Assembly: GCA_025455785.1 (NCBI GenBank)
Contig: JALOLV010000001.1
Span: 1-32,471 of the forward strand
Length of the DNA: 32,471 nucleotides
Direction: 5' to 3'
Source of the DNA: Spirosomataceae bacterium
Lineage (GTDB): Bacteria > Bacteroidota > Bacteroidia > Cytophagales > Spirosomataceae
This document shows, piece by piece, positions 8,701 through 29,879 of this stretch. Under the pieces are notes generated by a model. The model had not been told where the DNA came from, did not search any database, and saw only the letters and a list, made by a program, of their open reading frames with translations. Position 1 is the first letter of the stretch. Every line of letters starts with the position of its first letter. A program made the position numbers and the translations under genes.

Positions 8701-9680
8701 ACCCCAGATGATTGGCTTTCTGCTAATTTAAAAAATGAGTATTGGACTACATCGTATGTAAAGTTTATCTCTTGCCCATAAGGTGTGATGATTTTTCGTA
8801 GATACCAAGCTGATGTTACTGATTCATTTTTCCAAAAATGATTCCATCGGCTTGCACCTGGATAAATATTTTCATCTTGTGCTGTTTTGACATCTACCTC
8901 TGTACTTTTTTCATAAGCCCCATCACCAAAAACATATTTTGTTCCATCGGGCATCAAAACATCAAACCTTGTGAATTTTCCTACATCTGTTGTTCCATCA
9001 AATTCAAAAATGGGTATTATCTCAATATCTGTATCGGGGAAAAATATAAACTTTGATACTCCTGAATATTTATACATAAATTTATAGGACTGACCATTGA
9101 TATTCATGTAAAAAACATCGGGTTCTGTATCATCATCTACGGTGCTTAAACCTGTATAGCCATACCAATAATACCCTTTTCTTTCATAACTACTCGACCA
9201 CGTATTAATATCAAACTTACCCTCGTCTGGAATCCCCCTTACTTGTCGGGTAATCATACCCCCAGCCATTAAAGACCAATTCATTCCACTCCATGAAGCA
9301 ACCTCGTGTAATTTCATACCAGAGGCATTGTAATTTAAAGCAATTGGTACATTCAATGCACCTTCTTGCAAATTATAGAGTGGTAATGGAACGATGGCAG
9401 TACCAGTAAATTGATTTACTGCAATATCTTTAAAGCGATTTATGTCTGCGGCTTCTGGAGGGGCTGCTGGTGCAATTCCCGAGGGTAGGTTTCCAAAAGA
9501 AGAGATAGTAGGAATACCCAGATTTGTAGGTTTGTTAGATTCAAATTGTTTGAGTTCTTCGGGTGTAAAAGTCCGAACTGGTGGATAACCGTGATTTGCG
9601 ACCTTAACTGAGATAACTTGCTGTGCAAAAGTAATAAGGTTTACCAAGACTAAAATTAACAGTAAAATTACTTTTTTCAT
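2784..9680 (-). CDS. Rhs/YD-repeat polymorphic toxin with HEMGH tip (2298 aa)
   Basis: Signal peptide MKKVILLLILVLVNLITFAQQ (cleavage near residue 19), so it is exported. Residues about 60-700 resemble the N-terminal part of Bacteroidota RHS proteins (for example NRFKDIAVNQFTGTA). YD-type repeats follow (YEYDEIGRMIRKN, YNYLGLPSH). The RHS core DHLGNTRV...YDFHARGYDANTGRFDGIDP ends in the hinge NNPLSYIDPDGRNP at about 1986-1999. The variable tip of about 299 residues starts with a glycine-rich hydrophobic stretch and ends with HEMGH (2216-2220) plus a possible third zinc ligand Glu2280, so the toxin is probably a zinc metallopeptidase. It is longer than enterobacterial Rhs (about 1400-1500 aa), which is usual for this phylum. 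Its immunity candidate is 8 bp downstream. The sequence does not show how it is released or delivered. Confidence 0.9.
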   Translation of the reverse strand: MKKVILLLILVLVNLITFAQQVISVKVANHGYPPVRTFTPEELKQFESNKPTNLGIPTISSFGNLPSGIAPAAPPEAADINRFKDIAVNQFTGTAIVPLPLYNLQEGALNVPIALNYNASGMKLHEVASWSGMNWSLMAGGMITRQVRGIPDEGKFDINTWSSSYERKGYYWYGYTGLSTVDDDTEPDVFYMNINGQSYKFMYKYSGVSKFIFFPDTDIEIIPIFEFDGTTDVGKFTRFDVLMPDGTKYVFGDGAYEKSTEVDVKTAQDENIYPGASRWNHFWKNESVTSAWYLRKIITPYGQEINFTYDVVQYSFFKLAESQSSGVCPTPAQVDKRINKVYVEGASLGSITTDHKKVEFNRRFRECFETESGNEICYINAPPRLDLDSWDENPTSQSNAKKLVEMTVMDKVNPTDTLKYQFDYGHFTGFEDDLPSGYTHDDVGYSHTKRLRLEKVTFPDKTTYRFRYNGDSPTFNGKSRLNYGIDHWGFPNGSTGNRFLTGLIPRDSFFSGCTPNTSNRETNIDFAFYGSLDSVVVSTGSYTKFIYELHEARNYKNSNGTYKPIGGARIKEIKNKDLISGIETIKSYSYVLPDTRPSGFLSMKPIYRFKNNFAAIGANSGIYDRLFAEIGRPVVGYTRVVEQIKNNIDNTLGKTIYTFDHDTTEITTERIVVNCTGEYPNQICDTTYYYQPERIKEGVIVYHDFKSGNPIRTEILNQNGDTLSVQTFAYTTLQGNSVDNTFSSKVFKVNGYNLGYASCCGGVFLEEYSQLFKRYHLEKQTSKVFSQNGTNPITTIQEFTYKDEILSGYHNTYPGQHNFLVKIESSDGQNHQLSSLTKYIADFNFGLDTVLIPRICYDPEYGTPYNCDTTEYFIHVPRLGTQARAIYEMQRRHILTPTIEIVSKNGTRVAQAAFNRYDSLNVTTNSQFGYFLKESFALNNIGEAIFSDVIYNRVSDDSLVRDTNFYPIVEYQDYNNKGFSKKVKGFGASINGTDYDTAGVLPIRSINNIGGVVIDTTQYEYETKIFGLSKQISPNKLAINYKYYTDSELHKVGQLKQITDKDGYILSHYEYPYFKQNLINTSGTFNTDTTKNRVVVRSPRDSTRNVYQDYQKVSTSVSYSDGSGRTLQSVAYKASPKAKDLLSSTPEYDTFGRPQKNILPVVSPIATGNFQSGSQSLAQTFYNDTAPYSEVTQYENSPLSRAFKGIGVGAAFRPNRETEQKFETGNFGIAKYELDYNGNLNINTYSGNQILKTVGIDEQQQAVISYSDKDGRILEKHVQFTGDGTSTSHYLITTYVYDYLGRLALIIPPKMYGVIPDNTNIASSSYLVGVYMMKYDKRNRIIEKHTPDAGWSYVVYNRLGQIVLEQDARIRTNNQWRFSKYDAYGRMALAGILPNNSTRATLQATFDTLTLIKQYEETTPTGGILGYTNRSFPSSIPVIEPDVMVVNYYDDYSWKPADTLNFVPYRGVKYGNVKGLQTGNQVRRLDTQAWLRTAMYYDDQNRLIQSQAENRFGDINQNDFVFDFIGQLLEERTLYRKPTGSIPYSSEIESKTTYQYDHVGRKTQAIHYFTGHSPELLATYEYDEIGRMIRKNLNEAQKDSIIRQNETLNNRVIDVAKKYILLKPGTTILPDTNYLAFIGSGIQKVDYSYNIRGNLRGINLTPAGKLDSSKVFSMKLDYFEDGRYFDGNLSKQSWKTSRDTTLRSFTYDYDKSQRYTKAAFKGKTNEKYDENVAYDANGNIEKLNRFGLESTNNWQRIDSLSYIYPTYQNQLTGLTDAANDNIGFKEALTGGVGAYTYYPDGSLKTDANKGIDSIRYNYLGLPSHIFFDTDKYIENVYTADGQKLYQKIVNGSSTIRTDYVGSLLYRNDTLTAALHDEGKIRFDTLGSHYQYFINDHLGNTRVIFEKLNDSVYIAQENHYSPFGTLLEGIGVDSSWQWLYQSQEYIDAFGYNSYDFHARGYDANTGRFDGIDPVDNYALSGYAGMMNNPLSYIDPDGRNPVLIAMAIGAFMGGHISGTLSVGKGKSYWGGFGKGAITGAVGGILGFYAPIGILPGMAYGAGSGAITGTLGAALNGNNIGRGALMGAIGGSIFGGISGGLQADKLGANIWTGYREPHLLLASEVPAIKGGEEAPYTNEYLKEMKDLNFSDVKGVSNISKDWMPKSYKVNSRGSFTNSKGDDVLAVTYYRVWKGGSKQSIFFSKASFASKELLAYTMTHEMGHVIHNNLGLSSEASEKALSGLLDTEGHVAIQGMTLDLIKINKWQLANFPSQATNFLGTRAEASLLNPIKQLARIIIFPK

Positions 9681-9985: not shown

Positions 9986-10648
9986 TTATATTTCGTTTTT
10001 TATAAACCTTCTTAATTCAACAGAATATACAAGTAAAATGTCATTTACTTGTTTTAATGAACTGACTAATTCTTGATAATTTGGATATAATTTTTGTATT
10101 TCTTGTGGTGTTTTATTTTTATTCTCATTATCCTCTGAATGATTGGTATACCATTTTTTAAATTTTGCTTGGTGTTCAGTTAAATGAGGTCTAAGTCCTT
10201 TATTTAGTATATCAGTAGTTAGTTCTATAAGTTTATCTGATGCTGAACTTTTTTGTAGTAACTCGCCAGAAATGTTTTTCAGTTCTTGCCTGATTACTTG
10301 AAATAATGAGTACCAAGAATTATAGACCTCAATTATTAAGTCATGGTTTTCATCGAATGGGAGTGCTGCTTTTCTCGTTATTAGCTCAACGTATATTTTA
10401 TGTGCTATTTCGAGATTTGTAAAGTTTCGCACAATATCATATTCAACTTCTCCTCCTCCCACACTGACTTTCATTTTAACAGGGATAATTTGCGAATAAT
10501 GATTGTTTTTACTTTTGACAGATTTAATTATCAGCCAAATAATCAAACCTATAACGGATAATATAAAAACAATAAATAAACTTATTTGTATTGTAAAACC
10601 CCAGGTTTCGGGGTTGAAAGAAAGGTCGATTATCTTTATATCATTCAT
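9986..10648 (-). CDS. Single-pass membrane protein, last gene of the TIR/nucleotide operon (220 aa)
   Basis: The ATG at 10648 (MNDIKIIDLSFNPETWG) is preferred over the TTG used by the ORF track. It lies inside the end of the Nmad2 gene (ATGAATGA overlap), implying coupled translation. One strong transmembrane segment covers residues about 16-42 (IQISLFIVFILSVIGLIIWLI) and is followed by a basic stop-transfer stretch. The cytoplasmic part of about 175 residues starts with a short beta segment (MKVSVGGGEVEYDIV) and becomes strongly helical. I recognise no family. As the only membrane protein of a TIR-containing operon it could be a membrane-acting effector or a sensor; that is inference from context. 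Confidence 0.7.
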   Translation of the reverse strand: MNDIKIIDLSFNPETWGFTIQISLFIVFILSVIGLIIWLIIKSVKSKNNHYSQIIPVKMKVSVGGGEVEYDIVRNFTNLEIAHKIYVELITRKAALPFDENHDLIIEVYNSWYSLFQVIRQELKNISGELLQKSSASDKLIELTTDILNKGLRPHLTEHQAKFKKWYTNHSEDNENKNKTPQEIQKLYPNYQELVSSLKQVNDILLVYSVELRRFIKNEI

Positions 10649-11270
10649 TGTAGCTATATCGTTCAAAGTTTTCGTTAAAACTTATCGGGTCGGCGTGAAT
10701 ACCCATTTCAAATTTTGAAAGCCAATCTAAAAAGCTATTAATTTCTTCAAAGTTAGTAATCGTTTTATACCCCTGACCCTTTTTTAGAAAAGATTCGTGC
10801 AACTGTTCAGGAAGTTTACGAGCAAGTCTTCCAAAATAATAAAAATTTTCTGATACTAAGACAAAGGAACTTTTAGTATCTCGTGCGATATTTACACTAT
10901 TCGGACTACCATCTTCATTACTATGATGAGAGTTTTGTTGAATCCAAATATCGTTCTCCTTGTGATAGATATTATCTCCATACATTTGGACTAAACTACC
11001 ATTAATTACGGGTTTTTTTAATTCAAATCGAGAATCTTCCCAATATTGATTATACGTTAATTTTTCATCTACCCTCATAGCATAGACTAACTTACCCTCA
11101 AAATCACCATCACTTCCTGCAATGTCTTTGCCACCTGTTCCGATAATCCAATCACCAACATTTGCATTTTGTCTTATATCTGCTTTACATGTTGCAAGTG
11201 TACATAAACCATTAAAAGGATTTGGGGCAAACCCATAATCACGAACAATGACATAAGAATATATTTTCAT
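10641..11270 (-). CDS. Nmad2-family protein (nucleotide modification associated domain 2, 209 aa)
   Basis: The start is ATG 11270 (MKIYSYVIVRDYGFAPNPF), 2 bp after the TIR stop; the track's TTG start adds three residues inside the TIR gene. Conserved-looking blocks are GFAPNPFNGLCTLATCKADIR (about residues 13-33), GDWIIGTGGKD, KLVYAMRVDEKLTYNQYW, YGDNIYH and FYYFGR. These are what I recall of the Nmad2 family, a domain named for its gene neighbourhoods with enzymes that modify DNA bases or nucleotides. Its biochemical role is not established. An RNA/nucleotide-binding PUA/ASCH-like fold is plausible because of the small beta-rich N-terminal half, but I cannot show it. The gene overlaps the following membrane-protein gene by 8 nt. 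Confidence 0.75.
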   Translation of the reverse strand: MKIYSYVIVRDYGFAPNPFNGLCTLATCKADIRQNANVGDWIIGTGGKDIAGSDGDFEGKLVYAMRVDEKLTYNQYWEDSRFELKKPVINGSLVQMYGDNIYHKENDIWIQQNSHHSNEDGSPNSVNIARDTKSSFVLVSENFYYFGRLARKLPEQLHESFLKKGQGYKTITNFEEINSFLDWLSKFEMGIHADPISFNENFERYSYNE

Positions 11271-11272
11271 AC

Positions 11273-11767
11273 TTAACAATTACTAACGATTCGTGTAAAA
11301 GGACTATTCCATGAAGAGTTTTCTCCATCTTCCCATTTAGGAGGTGTCCCACCGCCCTCCAATGCTTCAATTATTTTATTACCTGTCCATCCAACCATTG
11401 CATGGCCATATTTTGCAAGTTTTTCGGGAATATCAGATTGTCCAGCACCATTAATATAGACGCCTACTATACGTTTACCTTTTTTGTGAGCTTGTTCAAT
11501 CTCCCAATCAACCCATGGTCTTGTATGTGTTTCTGGACCAACTAAAACAATGACTGTACCAGACCAGTGTATTCTAAGTCGAAGCAGTCTTTTAATGTAA
11601 TCGGGGTTTGATGCTTGATTCGGCTTTGTGCTATCAATAGAGCTATTTTTAAGCTGATACCCTCTATTACGCAATAGTGTTTTTAATCGCCCTATATGTT
11701 CTTCATCTTGCCCAAAATGACTTATGAAAACATTTTTTGCTTTGCGTTTTATTTTATCTCCAACCAT
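11273..11767 (-). CDS. TIR-like (ThsB/DUF1863-type) protein (164 aa)
   Basis: KNVFISHFGQDEEHIGRLKTLLRNRG (residues 11-36) is the first strand and helix of a TIR-like domain. VIVLVGPETHTRPWVDWEIEQA (72-93) is the segment that carries the catalytic glutamate in NAD-consuming TIRs, with Glu89 the best candidate. KRIVGVYI (98-105) is the next core strand. Overall it matches the Thoeris ThsB/MTH538 TIR-like family, whose members make or cleave NAD-derived molecules during phage defence. The gene is 2 bp after Nmad1 and 2 bp before Nmad2, so it is co-expressed with nucleotide-modifying proteins rather than with a ThsA. No ThsA-type SIR2/SLOG protein is in the window, so canonical Thoeris is excluded here. 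Confidence 0.85.
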   Translation of the reverse strand: MVGDKIKRKAKNVFISHFGQDEEHIGRLKTLLRNRGYQLKNSSIDSTKPNQASNPDYIKRLLRLRIHWSGTVIVLVGPETHTRPWVDWEIEQAHKKGKRIVGVYINGAGQSDIPEKLAKYGHAMVGWTGNKIIEALEGGGTPPKWEDGENSSWNSPFTRIVSNC

Positions 11768-11769
11768 TT

Positions 11770-12057
11770 TTAGACTTGTTTATCTTCATCAATAATAATT
11801 AACCCAATTATTGCATATCCGATAATATCTCTCAATGTATCTTCAATACTTTCAAAGTTAGGCGTCTCATTTTTAAGTGATTTTTCTACAAGGGTTTTAT
11901 ACCGACTAACTTTATCCCACAGGTGTACCATATTACCCAACATTCCTAAATCAAAACTTGCTCCCCCATAATCTTGATTTTTTTGAATTAAGATTTTTAT
12001 TATTTCATCTGTTATTAGCCTAACTTTTTCCTCTGTCATTGGATTATGTCGTTTCAT
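11770..12057 (-). CDS. Nmad1 / DUF1599-family protein (95 aa)
   Basis: A small all-helical protein with KNQDYGGASFD (26-36), WDKVSRY (47-53) and ESIEDTLRDIIGYAIIGL (69-86). This pattern (KNxDYG, DKxxR, ED-LxDxxxYA) is characteristic of DUF1599, also called nucleotide modification associated domain 1, and resembles the helical folds of MazG-like NTP pyrophosphatases. Acidic and basic residues suitable for metal and phosphate contacts are present, but the substrate is unknown. The start ATG (12055-12057) overlaps the end of the thymidylate-synthase-like gene by 14 nt. The TIR gene follows after 2 bp. Confidence 0.75.
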   Translation of the reverse strand: MKRHNPMTEEKVRLITDEIIKILIQKNQDYGGASFDLGMLGNMVHLWDKVSRYKTLVEKSLKNETPNFESIEDTLRDIIGYAIIGLIIIDEDKQV

Positions 12058-13057
12058 AGCTTAATTGATTTAAAATTGGATTAGCGAATTTAGGTTTTTT
12101 ATTTAGATTAAACTTATAAAAGACTTTTGCCCAATCATTTAGAAAATCATCATTAAAATAAGGCTCAGAGTCTAATAGTTTCAATCGGGTTTTTTCTTCG
12201 TATTTCTCTAATTCTTTAATTTTTTCATTAAACTCTGAAAGGTTGGAAAAGGTGGGTGTGGAATAGTCGAAATGATTATCTATTGGGTTTTTGATTTTTG
12301 CCATTTCAACAACCATTGGCTTAAAATCATCATAGAAATGGAAGTTATTAACAATATGGTAGTATTCTCCAATTGGGATGTTTAGAATATATGAGAAATA
12401 TTCTTGAATAAATGTAAAATTAAAAATATTTACCCCACTTGCCCCCCAAATGAAATCATTTGAACGCATATGAGTTATTAAATTAAGCCGATTATCTTTC
12501 GATAGAATAAATTGTAAACTAACAGTACATGGAAAATCTTTTGTGGTTTTTAAATGTCCATTCTCATCGAAACAATCTTTTGTTGGGTCTTCAATTGTAA
12601 TAATTGCTTGGCGTGTAGTTTTCTCTTTTTGAAAGCTCTTCTCTACAAAATCAAATTGGTCAATTACTCCAACTTTGTCAAGGATACTAATTCTATTTTT
12701 ATCAATTTTGTAATCATTAAGGATACCATTTCTATATCTTATTCTTGCCCCATATCCAGCCCTCATATAATCATTTTCAGCATATTCGTAAAGTTTTTTT
12801 GCATAATGCCCAATTAAAGACATATCATTCCTACCAAGCCCAATCCAGAGTGATTCAGCATAAGGTAAGCTGAACTTCCACTTCCGTGGACTTATTGTCA
12901 CTAATCGAGCTTTTGGGTTACTAATTTTTATTATTACTGGTTCTGGGAGTTCATAGCAAATATGATTTCGTACATTTCTTATTTGATAATTTGACAGCAA
13001 AAGGTCGGACATCCCTACTAAAAAAGAGTTAATTCCGTTGAATTCATAGGTTTGCAT
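12044..13057 (-). CDS. Thymidylate synthase-like / pyrimidine hydroxymethylase-like enzyme (337 aa)
   Basis: TS-fold signatures are visible. AESLWIG (67-73) has Glu68 in the position of the catalytic glutamate. FPCTVSLQF (175-183) has the nucleophile Cys177. RSND (198-201) is the phosphate-binding motif. GASGVN (205-210) has Asn210 near the residue that reads the pyrimidine. NNFHFY (237-242) matches the conserved His/Tyr pair. The Asn, if correctly aligned, favours a uracil- over a cytosine-type substrate, but the loop is one residue longer than in E. coli ThyA. The enzyme is therefore expected to methylate or hydroxymethylate dUMP. It overlaps the upstream kinase-like gene by 40 nt; ATG 13012 would remove the overlap but trims 15 plausible N-terminal residues. 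It is unlikely to be the housekeeping ThyA because the sequence is divergent and lies in a dedicated operon. Confidence 0.8.
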   Translation of the reverse strand: MQTYEFNGINSFLVGMSDLLLSNYQIRNVRNHICYELPEPVIIKISNPKARLVTISPRKWKFSLPYAESLWIGLGRNDMSLIGHYAKKLYEYAENDYMRAGYGARIRYRNGILNDYKIDKNRISILDKVGVIDQFDFVEKSFQKEKTTRQAIITIEDPTKDCFDENGHLKTTKDFPCTVSLQFILSKDNRLNLITHMRSNDFIWGASGVNIFNFTFIQEYFSYILNIPIGEYYHIVNNFHFYDDFKPMVVEMAKIKNPIDNHFDYSTPTFSNLSEFNEKIKELEKYEEKTRLKLLDSEPYFNDDFLNDWAKVFYKFNLNKKPKFANPILNQLSYETT

Positions 13058-14025
13058 GGTTCTATCCTTTCATTTATTCCCCATTTGGGTGGAAAAAAGT
13101 AATTAATTTGGTTCAGATTAGGGGAATTATATTTTTGTTTAATTCTAACATTATCTACTTGCAAACTCGGTAATGCAACTCTTAGATATTTATCTGTTTC
13201 GCAAAAACAATTTTGAAGGTCTATTAGTGTTAAATCTCTTCCAAATAAGTTAGAAAAACTTGTGTAACCGAATTCTTTTTGATATTTTTCAAAATTATCC
13301 TGCGTGTACTTAATAGCATCTTCCAAGCTATTTTTTCCTAAATCTTCAAAGCACTTTTTTATGCCTCTAACAGCACCTATACCAGCCTTAACAAAAGAGT
13401 TTTCATCAAAGTTTATTACTGGAGAATAATTTAGGTCTATTGAATATTGATAAGCTAAAAAATCGCCAATAAAAGAGCAATCATTCAATATATTATAAAC
13501 TTTTTCTAATGATTTGGCTGTAATTATTTTTTTTATTTTTTCACTTTTCATAATCTCAGTTTCGACCATTTTTAACCATTTTTCGTGTTTTGAATCAAAA
13601 TGGTCATATTTTCTATGCGAGCCAGTCATCATGTAAGCATTGTTAAAAATAGGTTTATTTTTAATACGTTCAGCAAGTAATGAAGAGATTTTATCGACAT
13701 TAAAATTTGATGTATTAAGCGGTCCAATCCGATTTTCTAAATACTCCCATGTTTCTATTTTATTGAAAATTTTGAATACTAATATTCTCAGGATAATATC
13801 TTCTTCTTTCATTTTTGTACAATCAACACCGTATATTACATTACTAATTAAGTATTGACTAACCCTATCACATGCCCTATAAACATTCGTAAATTTATTA
13901 TTTGCGAGAATTTTATCTTTTGAGAATGGGTAGTTTTCACCATTACATTTTTTCCAAAAAATGTTCATTCTTTCTTGCACAAAATAGAAATAATACTTGT
14001 ATGCTTCGGGTCTAATCTTTATCAT
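13018..14025 (-). CDS. 5-hmdU DNA kinase-like helical protein (HMUDK_hel type, 335 aa)
   Basis: The N-terminal pattern YFYFVQERMNIFWKK (11-26) followed by NNKFTNVYRACDRVSQYLI (42-60) is what I recall of the helical domain of phage 5-hydroxymethyl-dUridine DNA kinases and related thymine-hypermodification proteins. LGRDL, GAVRGIKK and the C-terminal YFFPPKWG further fit that family. It is essentially all-helical, and I see no P-loop, so it may be the helical/glycosylase-like part acting on modified pyrimidines rather than a complete kinase. It is the first gene of the operon. Its start lies 18 bp from the end of a MITE-like element, so transcription must begin inside or beyond that element. 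A neighbouring TS-like gene matches the phage pairing of hydroxymethylation with further modification. Confidence 0.65.
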   Translation of the reverse strand: MIKIRPEAYKYYFYFVQERMNIFWKKCNGENYPFSKDKILANNKFTNVYRACDRVSQYLISNVIYGVDCTKMKEEDIILRILVFKIFNKIETWEYLENRIGPLNTSNFNVDKISSLLAERIKNKPIFNNAYMMTGSHRKYDHFDSKHEKWLKMVETEIMKSEKIKKIITAKSLEKVYNILNDCSFIGDFLAYQYSIDLNYSPVINFDENSFVKAGIGAVRGIKKCFEDLGKNSLEDAIKYTQDNFEKYQKEFGYTSFSNLFGRDLTLIDLQNCFCETDKYLRVALPSLQVDNVRIKQKYNSPNLNQINYFFPPKWGINERIEPCKPMNSTELTLF

Positions 14026-14043
14026 TTTGAAAGTTGAGTTTAT

Positions 14044-14443
14044 GGGTATAATTAAGCATTTAGGTGTAAAGTTACAAGGTAAAAATATAATACGCTTATA
14101 ATCAGCAAGTTAAGCCTTTAAATGTCATTTTTTAATATTTCAACAAAAATGAATAATTTATACAAAAAATTTGATTGTTTGTTTTGTATAAAATAAAAGA
14201 ACGTTTGGTATAAACAGGATTTGCATAAAAATGACTTTATTTTTATGCAAAAAGTGTTTAAAAATATTCATTTTATAACTTTCTTGTAACAAATCTAAAT
14301 TTAAAACTCGTTTCTTAAAGCATTTCAGTACTCAATATCATCAAACTAAAAACAATAAAGCATCTTTTTGAATATAAACTATTGATAATAAATCAATTAC
14401 ATAGGTTTCATGTAACTTTACGCCTAAATGTTTAGGAACACCC
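14044..14443. mobile_element. MITE-like element, copy 1 (400 bp)
   Basis: The ends are GGGTATAATTAAGCATTTAG at 14044 and, inverted, GGGTGTTCCTAAACATTTAG at 14443. The two ends share the core TAAACATTTAGGCGTAAA (with substitutions) and a small CCTAAA/TTTAGG palindrome. The interior has no gene but carries a hairpin with 13-bp arms (TTTGCATAAAAAT at 14220). Nearly the whole element recurs in inverted orientation at 31816-32181. This copy has 34 extra bases (about 14319-14352) between two AAAGCAT repeats. The flanking 4-mers (TTAT, TACG) do not match, so one flank has been rearranged. No transposase for it is in the window, and the IS family is not assigned. Confidence 0.8.
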
Positions 14444-14449
14444 TACGTT

Positions 14450-14988
14450 GGTATTACGATTTAATCTCTGGTATTTCGTTGTAATACGTCTGGTGTTACG
14501 ATTTAATCGTTTGGTATTACGTGTAATATGTCGGTATTACGATTTAATACGTCGGTATTACGCTGTATTACGTCTGGTATTACGTCGGTATTACGATTTA
14601 ATACATCGGTATTACGATTTAATACGTCTGATATTACGATTTAATCTCTGGTATTACGCTGTAATATGTCGGTATTACGATTTAATACGTCGGTATTACG
14701 ATTTAATACGTCGGTATTACGCTGTATTACGTCTGGTATTACGCTGTAATACGTCGGTATTACGCTGTAATACGTCGGTATTACGATTTAATACGTCGGT
14801 ATTACGCTGTATTACGTCTGGTATTACGCTGTATTACGTCTGGTATTACGCTGTAATACGTCGGTATTACGATTTAATACATCGGTATTACGCTGTAATA
14901 CGTCGGTATTACGTTTGGTATTACGTCGGTATTACGCTGTATTACGTCTGGTATTACGTTGTATTACATCGGTATTAGACGGTATTAT
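14450..14988. repeat. Degenerate tandem array of 21-bp (2 x ~10.5) repeats
   Basis: About 25 units begin GGTATTACG. Three main versions alternate: ...ATTTAATACGTC, ...CTGTAATACGTC and ...CTGTATTACGTCT. Occasional half units of 11-12 bp (GGTATTACGTC) show that each unit is a doubled 10-11-bp motif. In the CTGTAATAC version the unit is a perfect palindrome GTATTAC-GCT-GTAATAC; in the CTGTATTAC version the same half-sites are direct. The last copies encode the final three residues of the serine recombinase. Spacing of one helical turn per half-site suggests a protein-binding array. It is not CRISPR because there are no unique spacers, and the 176-aa ORF through it is an artefact of a stop-free repeat. 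Confidence 0.85.
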
Positions 14989-15583
14989 GCTTTTTTAAGT
15001 AATTATATACTGTCCCATAGGCTACACCTGCACGAATACTTATCTGGTTCATTGATAATCCTTGTTTTTGTAATTCAAGGATTTCGTTGAGTTTATGTAT
15101 AGGTAGCTTCGGTCTCGAAATATTCTTACCTTGTACTTTGGCTCTTTGCATTCCTGCCTTTACTCGCTGACTTATCAACGAACTCTCAAATTGTGCCAAA
15201 GAAGCCATGACATGAAAAATCAATTCACCCGTTGGGGTTGTGGTGTCAATGTTTTCTTGGTAAGAAATGAAATCTACTCCCAAAGTCTGAAACTCTTTCA
15301 GGGCATTGACCAATGCTTGAGTCGAACGGGCAAATCGGTCGTATCGCCATACTAACACAACATCCAGTTTGCGTTTTTTGGCAGCATCCATCATCTGTTT
15401 GTATTGGGTTCGTTCTTGGGTAGTCCCCGAGGCATAATCTACGTACTCTCCCACAATTTCAAAGTTTCGCCTTTGGGCATATTCTCTCAATTGTAAAAGT
15501 TGGGTTTCGGGGTCTTGTGTTTTGTCGGTAGTAGATACCCTTGCATAGAGGGCAACACGATAATTTTTTGGGGTTTGATACAT
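14975..15583 (-). CDS. Small serine recombinase (resolvase/invertase family, ~202 aa)
   Basis: RVALYARVSTTDKTQDPETQ contains the catalytic serine (VST). VVLVWRYDRFARST (the RxDRxxRS-type motif) and ASLAQFESSLISQRVKAGM (catalytic/E-helix region) complete the domain. A short C-terminal helix-turn-helix (LSMNQISIRAGVAYGTVYNYL) binds DNA, as in Tn3/gamma-delta resolvases and Gin/Hin invertases. ATG 15583 (MYQTPKNYRVALYARV) is preferred over the TTG five codons upstream used by the track. On a plasmid it would resolve multimers, or it could invert or integrate DNA. Its last codons are made from the tandem repeat that follows, so array and gene have evolved together or collided. Confidence 0.9.
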   Translation of the reverse strand: MYQTPKNYRVALYARVSTTDKTQDPETQLLQLREYAQRRNFEIVGEYVDYASGTTQERTQYKQMMDAAKKRKLDVVLVWRYDRFARSTQALVNALKEFQTLGVDFISYQENIDTTTPTGELIFHVMASLAQFESSLISQRVKAGMQRAKVQGKNISRPKLPIHKLNEILELQKQGLSMNQISIRAGVAYGTVYNYLKKHNTV

Positions 15584-15925
15584 GATAATAATTATCAAAA
15601 AGGATTTCCTTTACAAAGTTCCTTTTTAATCTCGTAAACACCTCATTTTCAAGTATATTTTTTACCGAAATTTTGACACCCATTTTGATAAGTGCTTTCG
15701 ACAGATTTGACTCACTGATTTTTAAAAATATAATTTGGCAATATTATTATTAGCCAATATAATTACTTATAAAAACTCTTAATTAATGATAACAAATTCT
15801 TAACATTGGATTTGGTGCAAAAAAAAATATTTAATCTATCTTTAGATAAAAAAATAAAACCCAAAAGCCAACATAAAAATTAAAAGTCCGACAACCTAAC
15901 AAATCAGTTTTAAATCGGATGAAAC
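15584..15925. other. Divergent intergenic region between recombinase and 93-aa gene
   Basis: No gene is seen in this stretch of about 340 bp; the minus-strand ORF 15459-15683 overlaps the recombinase in another frame. It should hold two divergent promoters and possibly the recombinase site. The clearest structure is an AT-rich imperfect inverted repeat at 15731-15762 centred on TTGGC(13 bp)GCCAA. That could be a recombinase subsite or operator. Confidence 0.45.
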
Positions 15926-16233: not shown

Positions 16234-16278
16234 CAGAAAAGGCATAACTTGTGTTATGCCTTTTCTGTCCATTTTTTT
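16234..16278 (+). terminator. Rho-independent terminator
   Basis: Perfect 15-bp arms CAGAAAAGGCATAAC (16234-16248) and GTTATGCCTTTTCTG (16253-16267) enclose a 4-nt loop, and seven T's follow at 16272-16278. It ends transcription from the 93-aa gene. It also shows that the track's TTG start at 16249 for the next ORF lies in the hairpin loop and is not real. Confidence 0.9.
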
Positions 16279-16284
16279 ACAGAA

Positions 16285-16704
16285 ATGACAAATCGTATAG
16301 AAATTCAAGGTAATAAAGACATCAACACAGAAGCAGAATTTATTTCAGATGAATATCTTTTAGAAGATACTGCGGTAGGTGCTACCATAAGTCTTTATAG
16401 AAAATTACAAGGAATATCATTGGTTGAATTATCTCAACTTACGGGTATTGACATTAATACTTTAATGTATATCGAGCAAGATATAATTAATCCGATAAAT
16501 GATATTAAACTCATTTGTAAGTGCATTAATATCCCATTTGCTGTTTTGATATTAAATGCGATTTTAACGGAGCGGGATTTTGAACAGAATTCTACAAACC
16601 AATTTGCAGCTATGTTACAACCGATAATACACAAGCTAACAAAAAAGATTTACCTGAAAGACTCAGATAATAAACTTGATGAGTTAGTAATAACTACAAA
16701 TTAG
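16285..16704 (+). CDS. XRE-type helix-turn-helix regulator (139 aa)
   Basis: The start is ATG 16285 (MTNRIEIQGNKDINTE), just after the terminator. GATISLYRKLQGISLVELSQLTGIDINTLMYIEQD is a Cro/C1-type helix-turn-helix (roughly residues 32-66 of this start), followed by INPINDIKLICKCINIPFAVLI as the last helices of the domain. The remainder is a short helical tail. It probably represses a nearby promoter; the palindromic TGTAAACA cluster 0.7 kb away is a candidate target, but no direct link is visible. Its 3' end overlaps the convergent membrane-protein gene by 11 bp. Confidence 0.75.
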   Translation: MTNRIEIQGNKDINTEAEFISDEYLLEDTAVGATISLYRKLQGISLVELSQLTGIDINTLMYIEQDIINPINDIKLICKCINIPFAVLILNAILTERDFEQNSTNQFAAMLQPIIHKLTKKIYLKDSDNKLDELVITTN

Positions 16705-17627: not shown

Positions 17628-18860
17628 CTACTCTACCACCACTTGCCCATTCATCAGCATTGGTAAAAGCCAATCTCGTAAGCTGGAAAGTTGTTGGTTT
17701 TCTTTTTGTTTTTTATGAATAAGTTGGTAAAAATTGCTCAATTGGGTCGAAATTGCTATCAATAAAGTATCCTCTTTTGGTAATGCTATTTTTAGGTTTA
17801 AAATATCATCTACATTAATTGATGGATAAGATGAAACACTTGTATCTGCAATTGTTTGTAAGAAATCTACTGTTATCCTATTGGATAAAAAACAGTAGAT
17901 AAAATCATTCAAAACTGTATTTTTTTTATGACTGATAACTGCAAAACCCGTTGAAACAATCATATTCTCAACAGGTTCTTTTATTATTCCATAATGCTCT
18001 TGATTGGGTCTTACAGTTGAGTAAATGATGTCATTTTTTTTGACTATTCTTTTTGCTCTACTTGGTAGATTATTTTTTAAATCATCAATCAGTATCACAT
18101 TATCTATCTGATTTTTTGTAATATTACTTGTATCCAAGTAGTTTACATAAGAAAAATTACTTGATGAGTTCAATTGGTATTGATTTGCGTTACACATAGA
18201 CTTCAATTCTCCAACTTCCCACCCCTCAGGAATTTCTCTTTTCAATTCTTCATTCCAAACCATTGCACCACCAGAAGTTTTGTAGGGTTTGCCTTCGACA
18301 TCTGGGAAATCAAACTGCACAAACCAATAATCATACAGTGTTTTTGCCATGGCTTCCAGCTCGGCATTGATGCGGTTGTTGAGTTCTATTTTAGCATCTA
18401 AGGCGGAAAGGACATTGGCGATTTTTTGTTGGGTAGATAGTTCAAAATCAGGTATTAAAAAATCTAAAATTTGGTTTTTATCTCCACGTGGCATTTTCGT
18501 TCCTTTTGAGCCACGCATCATGTGGTCAAAGAAATCATCTCTAAAAAGGGTGTAATAAATGTACTTTGGGTAGTATTCTTTATTTACACTTAAAGTCAGT
18601 ACATCTGCCGAGCATCCTCCATCTCTATCAGCAAACCATATTTTTTTAAGATATGGGCGTATATTTCCAATAAGTATATTTTCAATTTTAAAAGCGGGTA
18701 TTGTTCCACTTTGGGGTGGAAGGTTAGATGCTAATGTAATTCCTTCTTTATTTTGGAGAAGGTTATCAGTTGTTATAAAATTTTCGAGACTTACATTTTC
18801 TATTTTAACTCTCTTATCAGAATAATTTGCGACTTTACTCAACTTCACTAACTTCCTCAT
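17628..18860 (-). CDS. hsdS: Type I restriction-modification specificity subunit HsdS (410 aa)
   Basis: It has two target-recognition halves joined by conserved helices. The first half (about 1-150) ends in STQQKIANVLSALDAKIELNNRINAELEAMAKTLYDYWFVQFDFP, the central dimerisation helix and the 'YdyWFvqFdFP' motif of this family. The second half (about 215-375) ends with ISTQLSNFYQLIHKKQKENQQLSSLRDWLLPMLMNGQV. HsdS sets the DNA sequence recognised by the methylase and the restriction complex. It is the last gene of the operon, 89 bp after the DUF1016 gene. The length is normal and both halves look intact; the recognised sequence cannot be read from the protein. Confidence 0.92.
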   Translation of the reverse strand: MRKLVKLSKVANYSDKRVKIENVSLENFITTDNLLQNKEGITLASNLPPQSGTIPAFKIENILIGNIRPYLKKIWFADRDGGCSADVLTLSVNKEYYPKYIYYTLFRDDFFDHMMRGSKGTKMPRGDKNQILDFLIPDFELSTQQKIANVLSALDAKIELNNRINAELEAMAKTLYDYWFVQFDFPDVEGKPYKTSGGAMVWNEELKREIPEGWEVGELKSMCNANQYQLNSSSNFSYVNYLDTSNITKNQIDNVILIDDLKNNLPSRAKRIVKKNDIIYSTVRPNQEHYGIIKEPVENMIVSTGFAVISHKKNTVLNDFIYCFLSNRITVDFLQTIADTSVSSYPSINVDDILNLKIALPKEDTLLIAISTQLSNFYQLIHKKQKENQQLSSLRDWLLPMLMNGQVVVE

Positions 18861-18949
18861 TTTCTATTGTTATTGATGGGTTGTTTTTAGTATTTTTTCT
18901 TGAAAAGTTTTTATTGTTCTTATTGCACAAACTCAGCTACCGAATTCGT

Positions 18950-20047
18950 TTAGTTTTTCATTTCATCCTCAATAAATCTCAGAAGTGTCTGTTTATCAGG
19001 CAATTGTAGCATATACTTCGAGATAAACAGTTCGTTTTCAAGCCCAGCGGTGGCATATTCTACGAGGGCATCGTCTTTGTCGGCACACAAAATCAGTCCT
19101 ACGGGTGGGTTATCGCCTTCGGTCATTTCGTTTTTTCGGTAGTAGTTGAGATACAGCACCATTTGCCCCGAATCGGCATGGTCAAATTTACCCACTTTCA
19201 AATCAATCAATACGTGGCATTTCAGAATACGGTGATAAAACACCAAATCTATTCGGTAATGCGTATTGCCAAAGGTGATTCTCTTCTGTCGAGCTTCAAA
19301 ACAAAAGCCCCTGCCCATTTCGGTCAAGAAAGTCTGCAAGTGGTCAATGATGGCGGTTTCGAGGTCGGTTTCGCTGTATTCTGTTTTTTCTTCTAAACCC
19401 AAAAACTCCAGAAAATACGGGTTTTTTATTAAATCTTGCGGGTTGGGAGCTTGTGTCTCTTTTATCTTTTGAATTACCGTCGCTTTGTCGGTCGAAAGCC
19501 CAGTTCGTTCAAACAGCAGGGTATCAATCGCACGGGCCAATTCTCTCACTTTCCAAGCATTTTTGATGGTTTCTACCTCATAAAACCTCCTTTTGAGGTC
19601 GGATTCGAGCCGAAGGAGTTCGATAAAGTGCGAAAACGATAAGGTATTAATGAGGGTCTCGGCAGGGAGCAACAGATGCTCATAGGAATCATTAGGAGGC
19701 GTCATTAGATTTTGTTTCAATTGGTCAGACGCTGTCTGACCAATTGAAACAAACAAAGCTCTCTTGAAGATAACCTCTCCTAAAACCAGATAATTCTGGT
19801 AAAATTGCCTGAATAACTTTAGGTTGGTCAATGACATCCCAGCAATATGTTTAAGTCTCTTACTGAGTTCGGTAAGAGTTTTATTACCATAGATTGCTTT
19901 TTCTTCGCCTTCTTGTTCAAATTCGACAATATAAAAGCCAATCAGCCAATTTCTGACTGTTTGGAGGGTGTTTACCTGCTTAACCGCCTGTGTCGAGGTT
20001 TGCTGATGAGTAATCTCTATACTTTGTATGAGTTCTTCAAATTTCAA
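18950..20047 (-). CDS. DUF1016 / YhcG-type PDDEXK nuclease (365 aa)
   Basis: The N-terminal helical DUF1016 domain includes QVNTLQTVRNWLIGFYIVEFEQEGEEKAIYGNKTLTELSKRL. The C-terminal PDDEXK nuclease domain shows YRIDLVFYHRILKCHVLIDLKVGKF (Asp and the DLK variant of ExK) and VGLILCADKDDALVEYA. Proteins of this type are frequent passengers of type I restriction operons; their exact job is not settled. The start ATG overlaps the 3' end of hsdM by 11 nt. A 43-bp nearly perfect DNA palindrome sits inside the gene and encodes SIGQTASDQ at about residues 103-111, in a spot where the protein can probably tolerate an insertion. Confidence 0.88.
   Translation of the reverse strand: MKFEELIQSIEITHQQTSTQAVKQVNTLQTVRNWLIGFYIVEFEQEGEEKAIYGNKTLTELSKRLKHIAGMSLTNLKLFRQFYQNYLVLGEVIFKRALFVSIGQTASDQLKQNLMTPPNDSYEHLLLPAETLINTLSFSHFIELLRLESDLKRRFYEVETIKNAWKVRELARAIDTLLFERTGLSTDKATVIQKIKETQAPNPQDLIKNPYFLEFLGLEEKTEYSETDLETAIIDHLQTFLTEMGRGFCFEARQKRITFGNTHYRIDLVFYHRILKCHVLIDLKVGKFDHADSGQMVLYLNYYRKNEMTEGDNPPVGLILCADKDDALVEYATAGLENELFISKYMLQLPDKQTLLRFIEDEMKN
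19711..19753. repeat. 43-bp perfect palindrome inside the DUF1016 gene
   Basis: TTTGTTTCAATTGGTCAGAC (19711-19730) is followed by GCT and then its exact reverse complement (19734-19753). Twenty-bp perfect arms inside a coding sequence are not expected by chance and would form a strong hairpin in mRNA or a cruciform. It reads in frame as SIGQTASDQ. Confidence 0.9.
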
Positions 20048-21668: not shown

Positions 21669-21672
21669 TATT

Positions 21673-22083
21673 TTAAGGGTATAAACCTAATTCGGCTAAT
21701 TGTTTTCTAAAAATTAGGCGTTCGATATCATTAAATCTAAAAATTTGCTCGGTGGCTTTACCGATGGGTGTTTTACCTAAAATCATCGAATTTGACACCA
21801 TAAAGTGGTCGTTCCAATTATCTCTTCGAGGGTTAAAGAAGCGGGTAATTTCGTCAGATTCACCAACGAAGGTGGCAATGTCAGAGCCTTTAGCAAAGTT
21901 ACACTCGGGGCAACAATAGGCTAAGTTTTCTTGGTTATCGTTGCCGCCATGTTTCACGCTACGGATGTGTTCGATATGGAACGAATAAAACGAGAGTCTA
22001 TCCGCTAAAAGGCAGTATTCGCATTTAAAGTTAGCTCTTTTGGCAACTAATTTTTTAAGAGAATTACTGATATTTCGACTCAT
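21673..22083 (-). CDS. HNH endonuclease (136 aa)
   Basis: CEYC (about 20-23) and CPEC (55-58 region) are the two zinc-binding pairs. HIEHIRSVKHGGNDNQENLAYCC supplies the catalytic His and Asn of the HNH/beta-beta-alpha-metal fold. The length is typical for stand-alone HNH nucleases that travel with defence genes. It begins inside the end of the small 80-aa gene (ATG/TGA overlap of 4 nt) and ends 4 bp before hsdM, so it is part of the restriction operon. It may degrade foreign DNA in concert with that system or be a passenger. Confidence 0.9.
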   Translation of the reverse strand: MSRNISNSLKKLVAKRANFKCEYCLLADRLSFYSFHIEHIRSVKHGGNDNQENLAYCCPECNFAKGSDIATFVGESDEITRFFNPRRDNWNDHFMVSNSMILGKTPIGKATEQIFRFNDIERLIFRKQLAELGLYP

Positions 22084-22322
22084 TTAGCAGTCATTTTAAT
22101 TGCCCGAGCTTTGGCAAGTCCAATGATTCGGTTGATAATGAGGTAGTGTTCTAACTCGTTCTTTTCTTCGGCAGATAACATATTTGCTTTTTGTTTTTCA
22201 AAAAGTGTATCTACTCTTTTTTGGCTATTTTCAGAAGGTTTAAAACCAATAACTTTTTTAGGATTCATCTGTGCGATAAATTCCGATATTTCATCATATA
22301 TTGATACTTCTTGAAGTGTCAT
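22080..22322 (-). CDS. Small helical protein preceding the HNH nuclease (80 aa)
   Basis: MTLQEVSIYDEISEFIAQMNPKKVIGFKPSENSQKRVDTLFEKQK... is helical and polar, with the block AEEKNELEHYLIINRIIGLAKARA near the C-terminus. Its stop overlaps the HNH start by 4 nt. Small genes of this type commonly precede HNH genes and could be a regulator or antitoxin-like partner; that is inference from coupling. It starts 42 bp after the hsdR stop. Confidence 0.7.
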   Translation of the reverse strand: MTLQEVSIYDEISEFIAQMNPKKVIGFKPSENSQKRVDTLFEKQKANMLSAEEKNELEHYLIINRIIGLAKARAIKMTAK

Positions 22323-22364
22323 TGCTAAGGTTTATTTTATTGATTAAAATTAATCATTTGAACG

Positions 22365-25422: not shown

Positions 25423-25751
25423 GAATATTTATAGGACTATAAAGTATAAATTTTATAAAGTTATTGCTTACCCTCAGTTTATATGTGTTTAATAATTATA
25501 TCACAAAAAGCTGAAAGTAATATTTAGCTATGAATCTATCTGTAAACTGCCGCCCCGCCCCCCCCTCTTTTATATTATAAAACTTGATTTTTCCTCCTTA
25601 TTTTTTTGATTGATTTCGTGGAAAACCTGTGTACAATTCCTAAAAGAAATAAAAAAAAGTATAGCATCAATAATTTGAGTTATTTATCAATATTATATTT
25701 GATTGATTTAGGGTGGGTGTAAATAATTGATAATAAGTATTTTATGAGTTG

Positions 25752-26336
25752 AAAAAGGAGGTTTGGAATAGGTAAAACGGAGATTTGGAATAATTTAAGA
25801 GGTTTTAAAAAAGAGATTTGGAATAAATAAAACGGAGATTTGGAATAATTTGGGAGGCTACAAAACGGAGTTTAATTTTGTTTTCTCCGTTTTTGTTGAT
25901 AAATTGCTTTTGCATTACAATTCTAACAAAAATACTAAAAAATTACTGTATTAACTATTGTATAATCTTGACAAAAACGGAGGTTTGGAATGTATGTGCA
26001 AAAATACTGGTTTTTGGGGGGCTTTCGGTTGTGATTCGGTTCTATTTCAGCTCAATTTCGAGTAAAAAGCTCAACTATTAAAACTGAAAACGGAGGTTTA
26101 GAATAAATAATTTTCAAAATAGTAATTAAAAAAACAAATTTATTTTATTCGCTATTAATATATTTATTATATGTATAGCGTTGCAATTTAAAGATTTACC
26201 TTTAAAAACGGAGGTTTGGAATAAGTAATTGAAAAATACTGACTTTTTGGGGTTTTCGGTTGTAATTCGGCTGTCTTTCGTTTCTATTTCGTGTGAAAGA
26301 CGCAAAAGTAAAACCGCAAAACGGAGATTTAGAATA
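25752..26336 (+). repeat. Iteron cluster, consensus AAAACGGAGRTTTGGAATA
   Basis: Eight 19-bp direct repeats start at about 25752, 25774, 25807, 25829, 25974, 26087, 26205 and 26318, with a partial copy at 25862. Copies differ at one to three positions: GGAGG or GGAGA, and TTTGGAATA or TTTAGAATA. The first four are spaced 22-33 bp apart and the rest about 113-145 bp apart. Iterons of this size upstream of a Rep_3 gene are the normal binding sites for the initiator and set copy number. Confidence 0.9.
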
Positions 26337-26374: not shown

Positions 26375-27361
26375 ATGAGTGATTTGAATCAAAGTGTAAT
26401 TAGTTTTAGCAGAAAATCTGATAATTACCAACCTAACCCAATAACAGAAAGCCGACAAGAATTTAGTGAAATCGAGAAAAAAATTGTTGTTTATGTTATT
26501 AATCAGTTAGGACAAGTTGCTAAAGATTGGAAAGGGCAAAATATTAGCTTCCCGATTCCTTTTACCGAGCTAACAGGTACTAATCATGCCAAAATAAAGA
26601 AAACGGCAGAGTCTATCATAACTAAGAGGATAACATTACTTGATAAGGTGTCTTCATCTGATAATGAAACTTACTATCATCTAATAATCCCGTTTACTGA
26701 GGTTTTATTGAGAAAAATCAATGGGAAGGACTACCTACAAGTTGTGATGAATAGTTCCGTTGTCCCTTTTTTTATTGAGCTGGGCAAGCATTTTACAAAA
26801 TACAGTTTAGATATAATGCTTTCGCTTGGTTCAATATATGCTCAACGTATGTACGAAATTATTATGTTACATGTAGGACGCAAACAACGTAAGTTTAATT
26901 ACACCGTTGAGAAATTAAAATTTATGTTTAACTGCCCCGAGAGTTATACTTACAATGAGGTTAGAAGATGGGCTTTAGACGTAGCACAAAAAGAACTAAG
27001 AGAGAAAGCCAATATTATTTTTACATACGAGCCTTCTAAGAAAGAAGGAAAAAGAATAGTTGAGTTACAGTTTTATGTAAAAACAGAATTAGAGATTTCG
27101 CTCGAAGCAATTGCAAATGAAGCAGAGCAATTTGAAAGAGGAACCCCTATACAACAAAGAGATTGTATTATGAGGCTCCTGAATAATTACTCATTCACGA
27201 GAGAGCAACAAACGATAATAATGGGGGATAAAGAAAAATGGGCAATTTTTTTAAAGATTGATAGTGAAATTTATAATGGAGTTAGAAAAGATATAGATAA
27301 CCCAACTGCTTATATTGCTAAAAGCCTTGGCTTTAATGTCAGTGCTAAGAAGAAAAGATAA
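26375..27361 (+). CDS. rep: Rep_3-family replication initiator (328 aa)
   Basis: The two winged-helix domains of Rep_3/RepE/pi-type initiators are recognisable. The N-terminal block is ITESRQEFSEIEKKIVVYVINQLGQ...ISFPIPFTELTG; the central block is LLSL-type FTKYSLDIMLSLGSIYAQRMYEIIMLHVGRKQRKFNYTVEKLKFMFNCPESYTYNEVRRWALDVAQKEL, cut here for clarity into helices typical of the second domain. Length is normal for the family. The protein binds the upstream iterons and opens the origin. ATG 26375 (MSDLNQSVISFS) is the only start that keeps the N-terminal block. parA starts 62 bp downstream on the same strand. Confidence 0.93.
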   Translation: MSDLNQSVISFSRKSDNYQPNPITESRQEFSEIEKKIVVYVINQLGQVAKDWKGQNISFPIPFTELTGTNHAKIKKTAESIITKRITLLDKVSSSDNETYYHLIIPFTEVLLRKINGKDYLQVVMNSSVVPFFIELGKHFTKYSLDIMLSLGSIYAQRMYEIIMLHVGRKQRKFNYTVEKLKFMFNCPESYTYNEVRRWALDVAQKELREKANIIFTYEPSKKEGKRIVELQFYVKTELEISLEAIANEAEQFERGTPIQQRDCIMRLLNNYSFTREQQTIIMGDKEKWAIFLKIDSEIYNGVRKDIDNPTAYIAKSLGFNVSAKKKR

Positions 27362-27423: not shown

Positions 27424-28368
27424 ATGATTTCAGCAGAAAAAATTATAAAATTTCTCCGACAAAAACCAGCTTTAAACCTTTCTCAAATTGAAAAGGAATC
27501 GGGCTTACCATCCAGAACACTGCATAAAGCATTTAGTGGCTCGTTAAAACTGAATGAAAAACACTGCCAGTTGATAGAACCAGTTTTACGAAATTACGGA
27601 TATGCAGACGAGCTTTTTTCAAAAGCCAAAATTATATCAATCGTCAACCACAAGGGGGGAGTCGGTAAAACCACTACTACTATAAATCTTGGTAAAGCAT
27701 TAGTAATTTCAGGTTTTAGAGTCTTATTGGTTGATTTTGATTCACAAGGAAATACTTCACAGTGTTGTGGCGTACACCAAGTAGATGTTCAAGTGATTGA
27801 TGCTTTACTTGAAAAAGTAGATTTGCCAATTATACCACTCGATGAGAATTTATTTCTTGCTCCGTCAAATATTAAAATGGCTTATCGAGAACTTGAATTG
27901 ATAAATTCGATAGGGAACGAAAAACGACTTAAAAATAGACTTCAAAAAATATCAGAAGAGTTTGATTTTATCATCATTGATTGTCCTCCAGCCCTAAATA
28001 TTTTTACAACTAATGCGTTAGTTGCATCTGATTTGTGTATAATCCCTCTACAGCCAGAAGCATCAGCTCTTTATGGGGTAGATAGCTTATTCAACCGTAT
28101 TTACGAGGTAAGAGAGGAATCTAACCCTTCATTAATTGTAAAAGGAATTCTTTTTACGATGGTAACAGAAAATACCTTGGTACATAAACAGATGATTGAT
28201 TATGTAAAGAAAGAATATAAACATATACCAATTTTTAATGTATTGATTGAACGTGCTACAATTATTCAACAATCGCAGGTAGCTCAAAAAGATATTTTTA
28301 CATATTCACCAAAGTCGCCTGTTGCACTACAATATGCTGAATTGGCAAAAGAGTTTTTCATAATCTAA
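27424..28368 (+). CDS. parA: ParA partition ATPase with N-terminal HTH (314 aa)
   Basis: Residues 1-60 form a helix-turn-helix-like region (LNLSQIEKESGLPSRTLHKAFSG), as in P1-type (class Ia) ParA proteins that repress their own operon. The Walker ATPase follows: HKGGVGKTTTTINLGKAL (deviant Walker A, about 77-94), VLLVDFDSQGNTSQ (A'), and FIIIDCPPALN (Walker B). It moves plasmid copies apart using ATP together with ParB bound at parS. It is 62 bp after rep, and parB follows 14 bp later. Confidence 0.95.
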   Translation: MISAEKIIKFLRQKPALNLSQIEKESGLPSRTLHKAFSGSLKLNEKHCQLIEPVLRNYGYADELFSKAKIISIVNHKGGVGKTTTTINLGKALVISGFRVLLVDFDSQGNTSQCCGVHQVDVQVIDALLEKVDLPIIPLDENLFLAPSNIKMAYRELELINSIGNEKRLKNRLQKISEEFDFIIIDCPPALNIFTTNALVASDLCIIPLQPEASALYGVDSLFNRIYEVREESNPSLIVKGILFTMVTENTLVHKQMIDYVKKEYKHIPIFNVLIERATIIQQSQVAQKDIFTYSPKSPVALQYAELAKEFFII

Positions 28369-28382: not shown

Positions 28383-29339
28383 ATGGCAAAAAACTTTATG
28401 GCTGCAATGGTAACTACCAAATCTTCGACACCACCAGCCTTGTATTCTCAAACAGAAAAAATAAAAAAAGAGATTAGTATTTTAGACAATCTCAAGAAAT
28501 TTATTCCACCATTATCCGCCGAAGAACGTCAGCAGTTAGAACAGAATATTTTAGAATTTGGGTGTAAGGACTCGCTCACAATATGGGAAACCACAGAGGG
28601 GGTTATCTCTTCAGATTCTAAAACTCCAGATTTACCAAAATATATTTTAATAGATGGTCATAACAGATATGAAATCTGCCAGAAATATGGTATCGATTTT
28701 AAAATTCTAATTGTTGAGTTTGAAAATCTCGATAAGGTTTATGACTTTATGATAGACCATCAATTAGGAAGACGCAATTTATCGCCCGAGCAGATGTCAT
28801 ATTTGAGGGGTTTGAAGTATAATTCTTTGAAAAAAAATGAAGTTCAAAGAGATAGTAGTGGTAAGTTTTTATCGGATGAGAAGCCGAGTGGTCAAAGTGA
28901 CCAGACGGCAATTTTAAGTGAGGTAAATCAAGAAAATTTACCGAGTGGTCAAAATGACCAGGCGGCGAAAAAACAGACGCTATCAGAGCAATTAGCTGAA
29001 CAGTTTAATGTTGGAGAAAAGACGATTCGACGAGATGCTGCGTTTGCAAAAGGTCTTGAGATGTTACCGTCGGAGATTAAGAGTCAAGTTTTACAAGGAA
29101 AATCAATTCTGAATAAAGCTCAGATAATAGAGCTTAGTAAACTCAAAGATAAAAATGAGATTGAACTATTTATCAATAGACAGTCTAAAGAAAATGATTC
29201 TATTGTAGTTCAAACCGAAGATGATAATTTAAAAAAAGAAAAAGAACGTATTTCTATTCTCGTAAAATCTATTTCCAAACCCAAAGACTGCGATTTCTTA
29301 ATAAAAGAGTTAAGAGAACTAAAGAATAAAATGAACTAA
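28383..29339 (+). CDS. parB: ParB-like partition protein (318 aa)
   Basis: The N-terminal ParB/sulfiredoxin-like domain (about 35-135) includes LSAEERQQLEQNILEFGCKDSL and ILIDGHNRYEICQKYGI (the GxxR-type nucleotide-binding motif). Then comes RRNLSPEQMSYLRGL. A linker contains two SGQ-(S/N)-DQ repeats. A helix-turn-helix (LAEQFNVGEKTIRRDAAFA) and a helical C-terminus with a lysine/glutamate-rich dimerisation region complete it. The linker repeats are encoded by two 25-bp palindromic DNA segments (separate entries). It acts with ParA in plasmid segregation, and the binding site parS is not identified with certainty. Confidence 0.9.
   Translation: MAKNFMAAMVTTKSSTPPALYSQTEKIKKEISILDNLKKFIPPLSAEERQQLEQNILEFGCKDSLTIWETTEGVISSDSKTPDLPKYILIDGHNRYEICQKYGIDFKILIVEFENLDKVYDFMIDHQLGRRNLSPEQMSYLRGLKYNSLKKNEVQRDSSGKFLSDEKPSGQSDQTAILSEVNQENLPSGQNDQAAKKQTLSEQLAEQFNVGEKTIRRDAAFAKGLEMLPSEIKSQVLQGKSILNKAQIIELSKLKDKNEIELFINRQSKENDSIVVQTEDDNLKKEKERISILVKSISKPKDCDFLIKELRELKNKMN
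28884..28908. repeat. Palindromic element in parB, copy 1 (CCG..TGGTCA-AAG-TGACCA..CGG)
   Basis: TGGTCAAAGTGACCA (28889-28903) is a 6-bp perfect inverted repeat with a 3-bp spacer. The flanking CCG and CGG are also symmetric. It encodes SGQSDQ in the ParB linker and is repeated 57 bp downstream. Candidate parS-like or regulatory site. Confidence 0.6.
28941..28965. repeat. Palindromic element in parB, copy 2 (CCG..TGGTCA-AAA-TGACCA..CGG)
   Basis: TGGTCAAAATGACCA (28946-28960) with flanking CCG/CGG repeats copy 1 with only two differences over 25 bp, exactly 57 bp (19 codons) away. It encodes SGQNDQ. Preservation of symmetry in both copies suggests either a recent duplication or a binding site. 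Confidence 0.6.
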
Positions 29340-29863: not shown

Positions 29864-29879
29864 TTAAATGTTATAATTT

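Follow-up and report, generated by a model that had tools for sequence, protein, structure and literature searches.

A long array of one-turn-spaced GTAWTAC heptamers on a Spirosomataceae plasmid is a possible centromere-like site

Plasmid centromeres of type Ib tolerate both direct and inverted arrangements of short repeats (PMC5016525; PMC9499535). In parS/omega of pSM19035 and parH/ParG of TP228, such arrays of a short non-coding word go together with a small centromere-binding protein on a low-copy plasmid (PMC9499535, PMC5016525); the type Ib heptads are contiguous 7-bp copies of WATCACW, 7–10 per site, and lie beside the par genes. Another described case is R388, which is stabilised by 11-bp-phased repeats that StbA binds (PMC3098194): these short stbDRs act in cis and the small StbA acts in trans to stabilise the plasmid, with a word (TTGCATCAT) other than the one reported here and with two sets of five repeats placed in the stbABC promoter. 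Here we describe a much longer array of a different short word.

The window, by which we mean the whole 32,471-nt stretch of DNA analysed, closes into a complete circular plasmid of 32,372 bp, since its last 99 bases repeat the first 99. The plasmid is contig C102 of an incomplete (66%-complete) Cytophagales-type assembly. The array lies between a MITE-like element and a resolvase gene:

14042..14443, no strand: MITE-like element with terminal repeats CATTTAGGYGTAAAGTTAC (two copies aligned)
14450..14990, no strand: array of about 48 GTAWTAC-like heptamers, in 20–22-bp dimers and 10–12-bp monomers
14975..15583, minus strand: Tn3-type serine resolvase with Resolvase and HTH_7 domains (homologues 59–85% identical)

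Allowing at most one mismatch to GTAWTAC, we counted 48 heptamers at 14451–14988, 34 of them exact, versus a maximum of 2 exact heptamers per 540 bp in first-order shuffles of the window, which confirms the half-site array that the initial annotation had placed at 14450–14988. Spacing between heptamers is mostly 10, 11 or 12 bp, rarely 9, and doubled where one site is degraded (mean ~10.6 bp). The sites make up 23 full units of 20–22 bp, which dominate, and a few short units of 10–12 bp, and TRF reports periods of 10, 21, 42 and 85 over 14444–14987. Both annotated edges proved correct: the array begins 7 bp past the end of the MITE, which alignment of its two copies puts at ~14443, and it stops inside the codons AAT-ACC-GTC, the last three sense codons of the resolvase falling within it. 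Its interior is homogeneous and its edges are degenerate. Unit identity is 0.68 at a 4-unit lag compared with 0.59 overall, and this weak higher-order structure, together with a longest exact repeat of 66 bp at an offset of 85 bp, shows that block duplication contributes to the array. Since the source assembly is a short-read MAG, the array copy number is to be read with caution; the order of units in the assembly is plausible because the 99-bp contig overlap exceeds the 66-bp repeat in length. On a coding reading of the array there is a 175-codon open frame with a TTG start, and 11 of 500 unit shuffles reach such a length. The array was also considered as an RNA hairpin and rejected, its plus-strand folding energy being only ~1 SD below that of shuffles.

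The heptamer is a palindrome except for its central base, so half-sites that look inverted arise by a T/A point change at the centre of the heptamer. All 12 of these sites that were counted carry the flanks of direct orientation (TGTAATACG or TTTAATACG), and none carries those of a true inverted copy (CGTAATACC). A single base change does, as had been noted, switch a unit between direct and palindromic form, but the inversion of half-sites read from it falls away, the units being in direct orientation throughout.

The same phased heptamer is found at the partition operons of other plasmids. Seven par loci were picked from PLSDB solely by homology of the ParA protein, and their 200-bp flanks were tested. 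At up to one mismatch these flanks contained 12 phased GTAWTAC pairs versus 0.09 in shuffles. When all 64 classes of near-palindromic heptamer were compared in the same flanks, GTAWTAC yielded 10 phased pairs (10- or 11-bp spacing, at least one exact site; 5 of 7 loci) and the other 63 classes yielded none. The pairs lie upstream of parA in plasmids of Vibrio lentus, Leclercia, Kosakonia, Erwinia and Serratia, and in three of these five also downstream of the small parB:

L445, L446, L447, L455, L456: GTAWTAC-flanked gammaproteobacterial plasmid par loci, 11-bp spacing

The small ParBs of these loci match no Pfam family, and a Pantoea relative repeats GTATATAC in place of GTAWTAC. For the small ParB fold, AlphaFold gave a model of moderate confidence and there was no PDB match, and we therefore do not claim an RHH fold. 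At the loci sampled, we regard the association of phased GTAWTAC with par operons as strong. This identity of heptamer and phase lends support, at the level of sequence, to the initial proposal that the half-sites are helically phased for protein binding. It also ties an odd repeat to a concrete site, since GTAWTAC at one-turn spacing appears to be a small-ParB binding site in several bacterial groups. Among the papers listed by a literature search for GTAWTAC-type words together with partition, none was relevant.

A spacer-free pattern retrieved 103 loci from IMG/VR (L196–L298). In 62 of them the heptamers are spaced exclusively by 12 bp, and the examples displayed resemble coding repeats; 20 of the 41 phased loci have differing spacers, compared with 3 each for the control heptamers GTTWAAC and CATWATG. 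On one IMG/VR contig, L209, a parA–small parB operon is flanked on either side by exact heptamers, 14 in all, grouped into pairs and triplets with 11-bp phasing, and one triplet, GTATTACGTCGGTATTACGCGCGTAATACG, is nearly a window unit when set against GTATTACGTCGGTATTACGCTGTAATACG of the window. This contig was found through the motif itself and is not independent evidence, whereas the PLSDB loci were chosen independently of the motif. A ParA motif was present in the examined flank at 1 of 40 phased IMG/VR loci, which indicates that GTAWTAC arrays occur in other contexts too. Phased GTAWTAC clusters stand on dozens of phage-like IMG/VR contigs, and some of them lie between structural genes with no detectable parA.

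Two Arcicella plasmids (L044 and L058) carry a resolvase of the window's type, followed by parA and then by a small ParB-like gene. The region ahead of parA in L058 contains, at up to one mismatch, 14 GTAWTAC-like sites versus 3.8 in shuffles, a degenerate array in which GTATTAC-like words stand mostly at multiples of 9 bp; L044 shows no significant excess of GTATTAC-like words.

The step from these par operons to the window array is made on the identity of word and spacing. We put at about even the chance that the array is an expanded, orphan centromere-like array that works like a type Ib parS, though it is not provably a member of that class. As in type Ib centromeres, short repeated sites are present in an arrangement that may be direct and/or inverted, and the site word is common to such operons elsewhere. 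Type Ib membership is not claimed, because the array has no adjacent parA–small parB operon and no small ParB was found in any frame: the nearest par genes are 12 kb off and of another type, and no cognate small binding protein was found on the plasmid.

27424..28368, plus strand: ParA ATPase (plasmid's own par operon)
28383..29339, plus strand: large ParB-like protein of 318 aa, matching no Pfam family at 0.001

This large ParB-like protein is of another type than the small ParBs encoded in operons with GTAWTAC sites. Compared with the contiguous heptads of type Ib, the window has GTAWTAC at 10–11 bp in 48 sites, away from any par operon and with no cognate gene found. The GTAWTAC par operons (the gammaproteobacterial ones and IMG/VR contig 3300032360_000014) are closer, sharing the identical heptamer, its mixed centre base, the 11-bp phase and one near-identical 29-bp triplet, but there 1–14 sites flank parA and parB, whereas the window array stands 12 kb from any par operon. 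Evidence against the centromere reading also comes from the partition operon of the plasmid itself, a different ParA/ParB system 12 kb from the array, and from the number of sites (48), which is far above the 2–14 at GTAWTAC par loci.

As to protein binding, function in cis and the history of the array, we infer the following. The array would be a parS/parC-type site to which a small ParB-like protein binds, as in the ParA/small-ParB (type Ib-like) partition class, with one dimer on each near-palindromic heptamer. One-turn spacing would align the dimers on one face of the DNA and so allow a cooperative complex, and a ParA ATPase would then pull or tether the complex of dimers and array. Either the array may work in trans with the small ParB of a co-resident plasmid, or it may be the relic of a resolvase–parS–parAB stability module; in the latter case parAB would have been lost where the MITE and the DNA-modification and defence genes now stand, and the array would then have grown by tandem duplication. 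We consider it unlikely that the array is a giant orphan centromere whose ~48 sites recruit the partition proteins of co-resident plasmids or phage-plasmids in trans. If this were so, the plasmid would be segregated at the other element's expense, or ParB would be titrated and the other element expelled. An orphan array of 48 sites on a plasmid whose partition system is of another kind would be well suited to testing whether plasmids exploit or undermine one another's segregation.

Profiles of gammaproteobacterial and Bacteroidota small ParBs detected no small ParB-like gene in any frame of the window, and a search with the small protein of L058 found nothing in the rest of the 66%-complete genome. 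The assembly does contain, on contig C224 (L448), a par locus with a small ParB and a type Ib-like parA, and both flanks of this locus have TGTTTAC/GTAAACA repeats. No GTAWTAC pairs occur at this ParA locus, and so no partner for the array was found in the incomplete assembly. The plasmid's own large ParB is likewise not supported as the binding protein. Six plasmids with a homologous large ParB (five scanned fully, the sixth mostly) had only rep-proximal iterons and no GTAWTAC array, which argues that the array is not the conserved site of this protein.

The array is private and tandemly duplicated and has no partner gene, which makes a neutral minisatellite the main and serious rival to the centromere reading. 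Here an 11-bp and then a 21-bp unit would have spread by slippage or unequal exchange in the non-coding gap between resolvase and MITE, nothing would bind it, and its match to partition-site words would be a coincidence; taken jointly, we find this possible but rather less probable than a centromere-like site. The array is indeed private to C102 among 396 relatives, 148 phylum-wide genomes, PLSDB and phages, and one array-specific pattern had no match in IMG/VR. Its head-to-tail units are confined to one locus, weakly duplicated at a higher order of 85 bp and degenerate at the array edges, as in a minisatellite, although this does not exclude a function, and variants in the unit columns are not clearly concentrated outside the heptamer (3 variant alleles in 9 core columns versus ~11 in the other 12). 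The lack of a cognate binding gene in the plasmid and the phased GTAWTAC clusters of phage-like contigs with no detectable parA point the same way. Against a minisatellite stand the fact that its unit contains the sole heptamer among 64 classes to be phased at par operons, with 10–11-bp spacing in both, and the finding that ~380 kb of random stretches from its own and related genomes held no array of comparable length. Those same phage-like contigs would also suit a cluster of operators for some other regulator, for example a phage-type repressor or the nearby HTH protein encoded at 16249–16704, whose gene is weakly similar to one near the L209 par locus. We judge this quite improbable, as a site that follows the resolvase gene and precedes the MITE is no promoter position, and 48 sites are too many for an operator.

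The two other candidates have very little in their favour. The initial annotation had suggested that the array is the expanded site of the recombinase itself, and such a recombination or accessory site would explain why it adjoins the serine resolvase and enters the 3' end of its gene; Tn3-family res sites likewise adjoin a tnpR-type gene. These res sites, though, lie upstream of tnpR and have another sequence, and the window possesses one separately:

15592..15691, minus strand: putative resolvase recombination region, TATCAAAAWGG ... GTAAAGGANNTCCTTTTTGATA (motif-level, aligned by eye)

We gathered 56 homologous resolvase loci. The homologues sit in complete Tn3-like contexts, with a divergent upstream gene at several loci that reads like a Tn3 transposase and with an annotated Tn3-family transposase adjoining the resolvase in one plasmid relative. 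Most share the upstream region TATCAAAAAGG ... GTAAAGGANNTCCTTTTTGATA that the window keeps at 15592–15691, and downstream of many, where the window has the array, is a Tn3-type terminal repeat ending near AGAACCTC, which is absent from the window. Related recombinases had been proposed as the place to look for the repeat, and a GTATTAC array stood beside none of the 56; a weak 54-bp repeat with an 11-bp period at one locus was the nearest thing, and no locus had a comparable array. Two Runella plasmids appeared to favour a link, having 10–11-bp-phased arrays of partly similar words within ~1.2 kb of a different resolvase, but that resolvase belongs to another subfamily (35% identical to the window's) and those arrays contain few GTAWTAC sites. 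Sampled loci of the Runella-type resolvase in relatives had no arrays, and a general array–resolvase link was accordingly rejected along with the recombinase site, which we hold to be the least credible of the readings. Hardly better is the possibility that the array consists of Rep_3 iterons, as a copy-control or incompatibility locus or as the relic of a second origin. Its 21–22-bp period does match that of Rep_3 iterons, of which nearly all related plasmids scanned have one such array directly upstream of rep. The plasmid's own iterons differ from the array in sequence and position, with nothing in common with it, and this candidate was rejected:

25751..26335, plus strand: Rep_3 iterons, AAAACGGAGRTTTGGAAT in 8 copies, with no relation to the array
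26375..27361, plus strand: Rep_3 replication initiator

In every iteron array scanned, the repeats directly precede rep, which is not the case for the window array, and 11-mers of the window array occur at chance level in related plasmids.

The short 10–11-bp-phased Runella arrays are at 42770–42821 and 43093–43144 of L142 and at 37381–37566 and 39127–39319 of L149, with the words TGGTAATACAT, GTAATGATAC and AGGTAACCTATA; arrays of GTAATGATAC, with few GTAWTAC sites within them, occur in 2 of 119 related genomes.

The MITE-like element beside the array has a second copy at 31816–32183 (83% identical) and a short double-ended remnant at 29820–29872. No close match was found in 38 relatives, and within the assembly the element is confined to the window plasmid. 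Other regions of the plasmid also drew our attention. Genes for a 5-hmdU DNA kinase (HMUDK), a thymidylate-synthase-like protein, Nmad1 (DUF1599), a ThsB-like TIR protein and Nmad2 lie at 9986–14025, and this nucleotide-modification and defence-like cluster looks like a hypermodification-linked defence island. A type I restriction-modification operon at 17628–25199 is split by genes for a YhcG/DUF1016 nuclease and an HNH endonuclease. At 2784–9680, a gene for a very long RHS-like repeat protein (2298 aa) is followed by small genes, and the region looks like a polymorphic toxin/immunity region.
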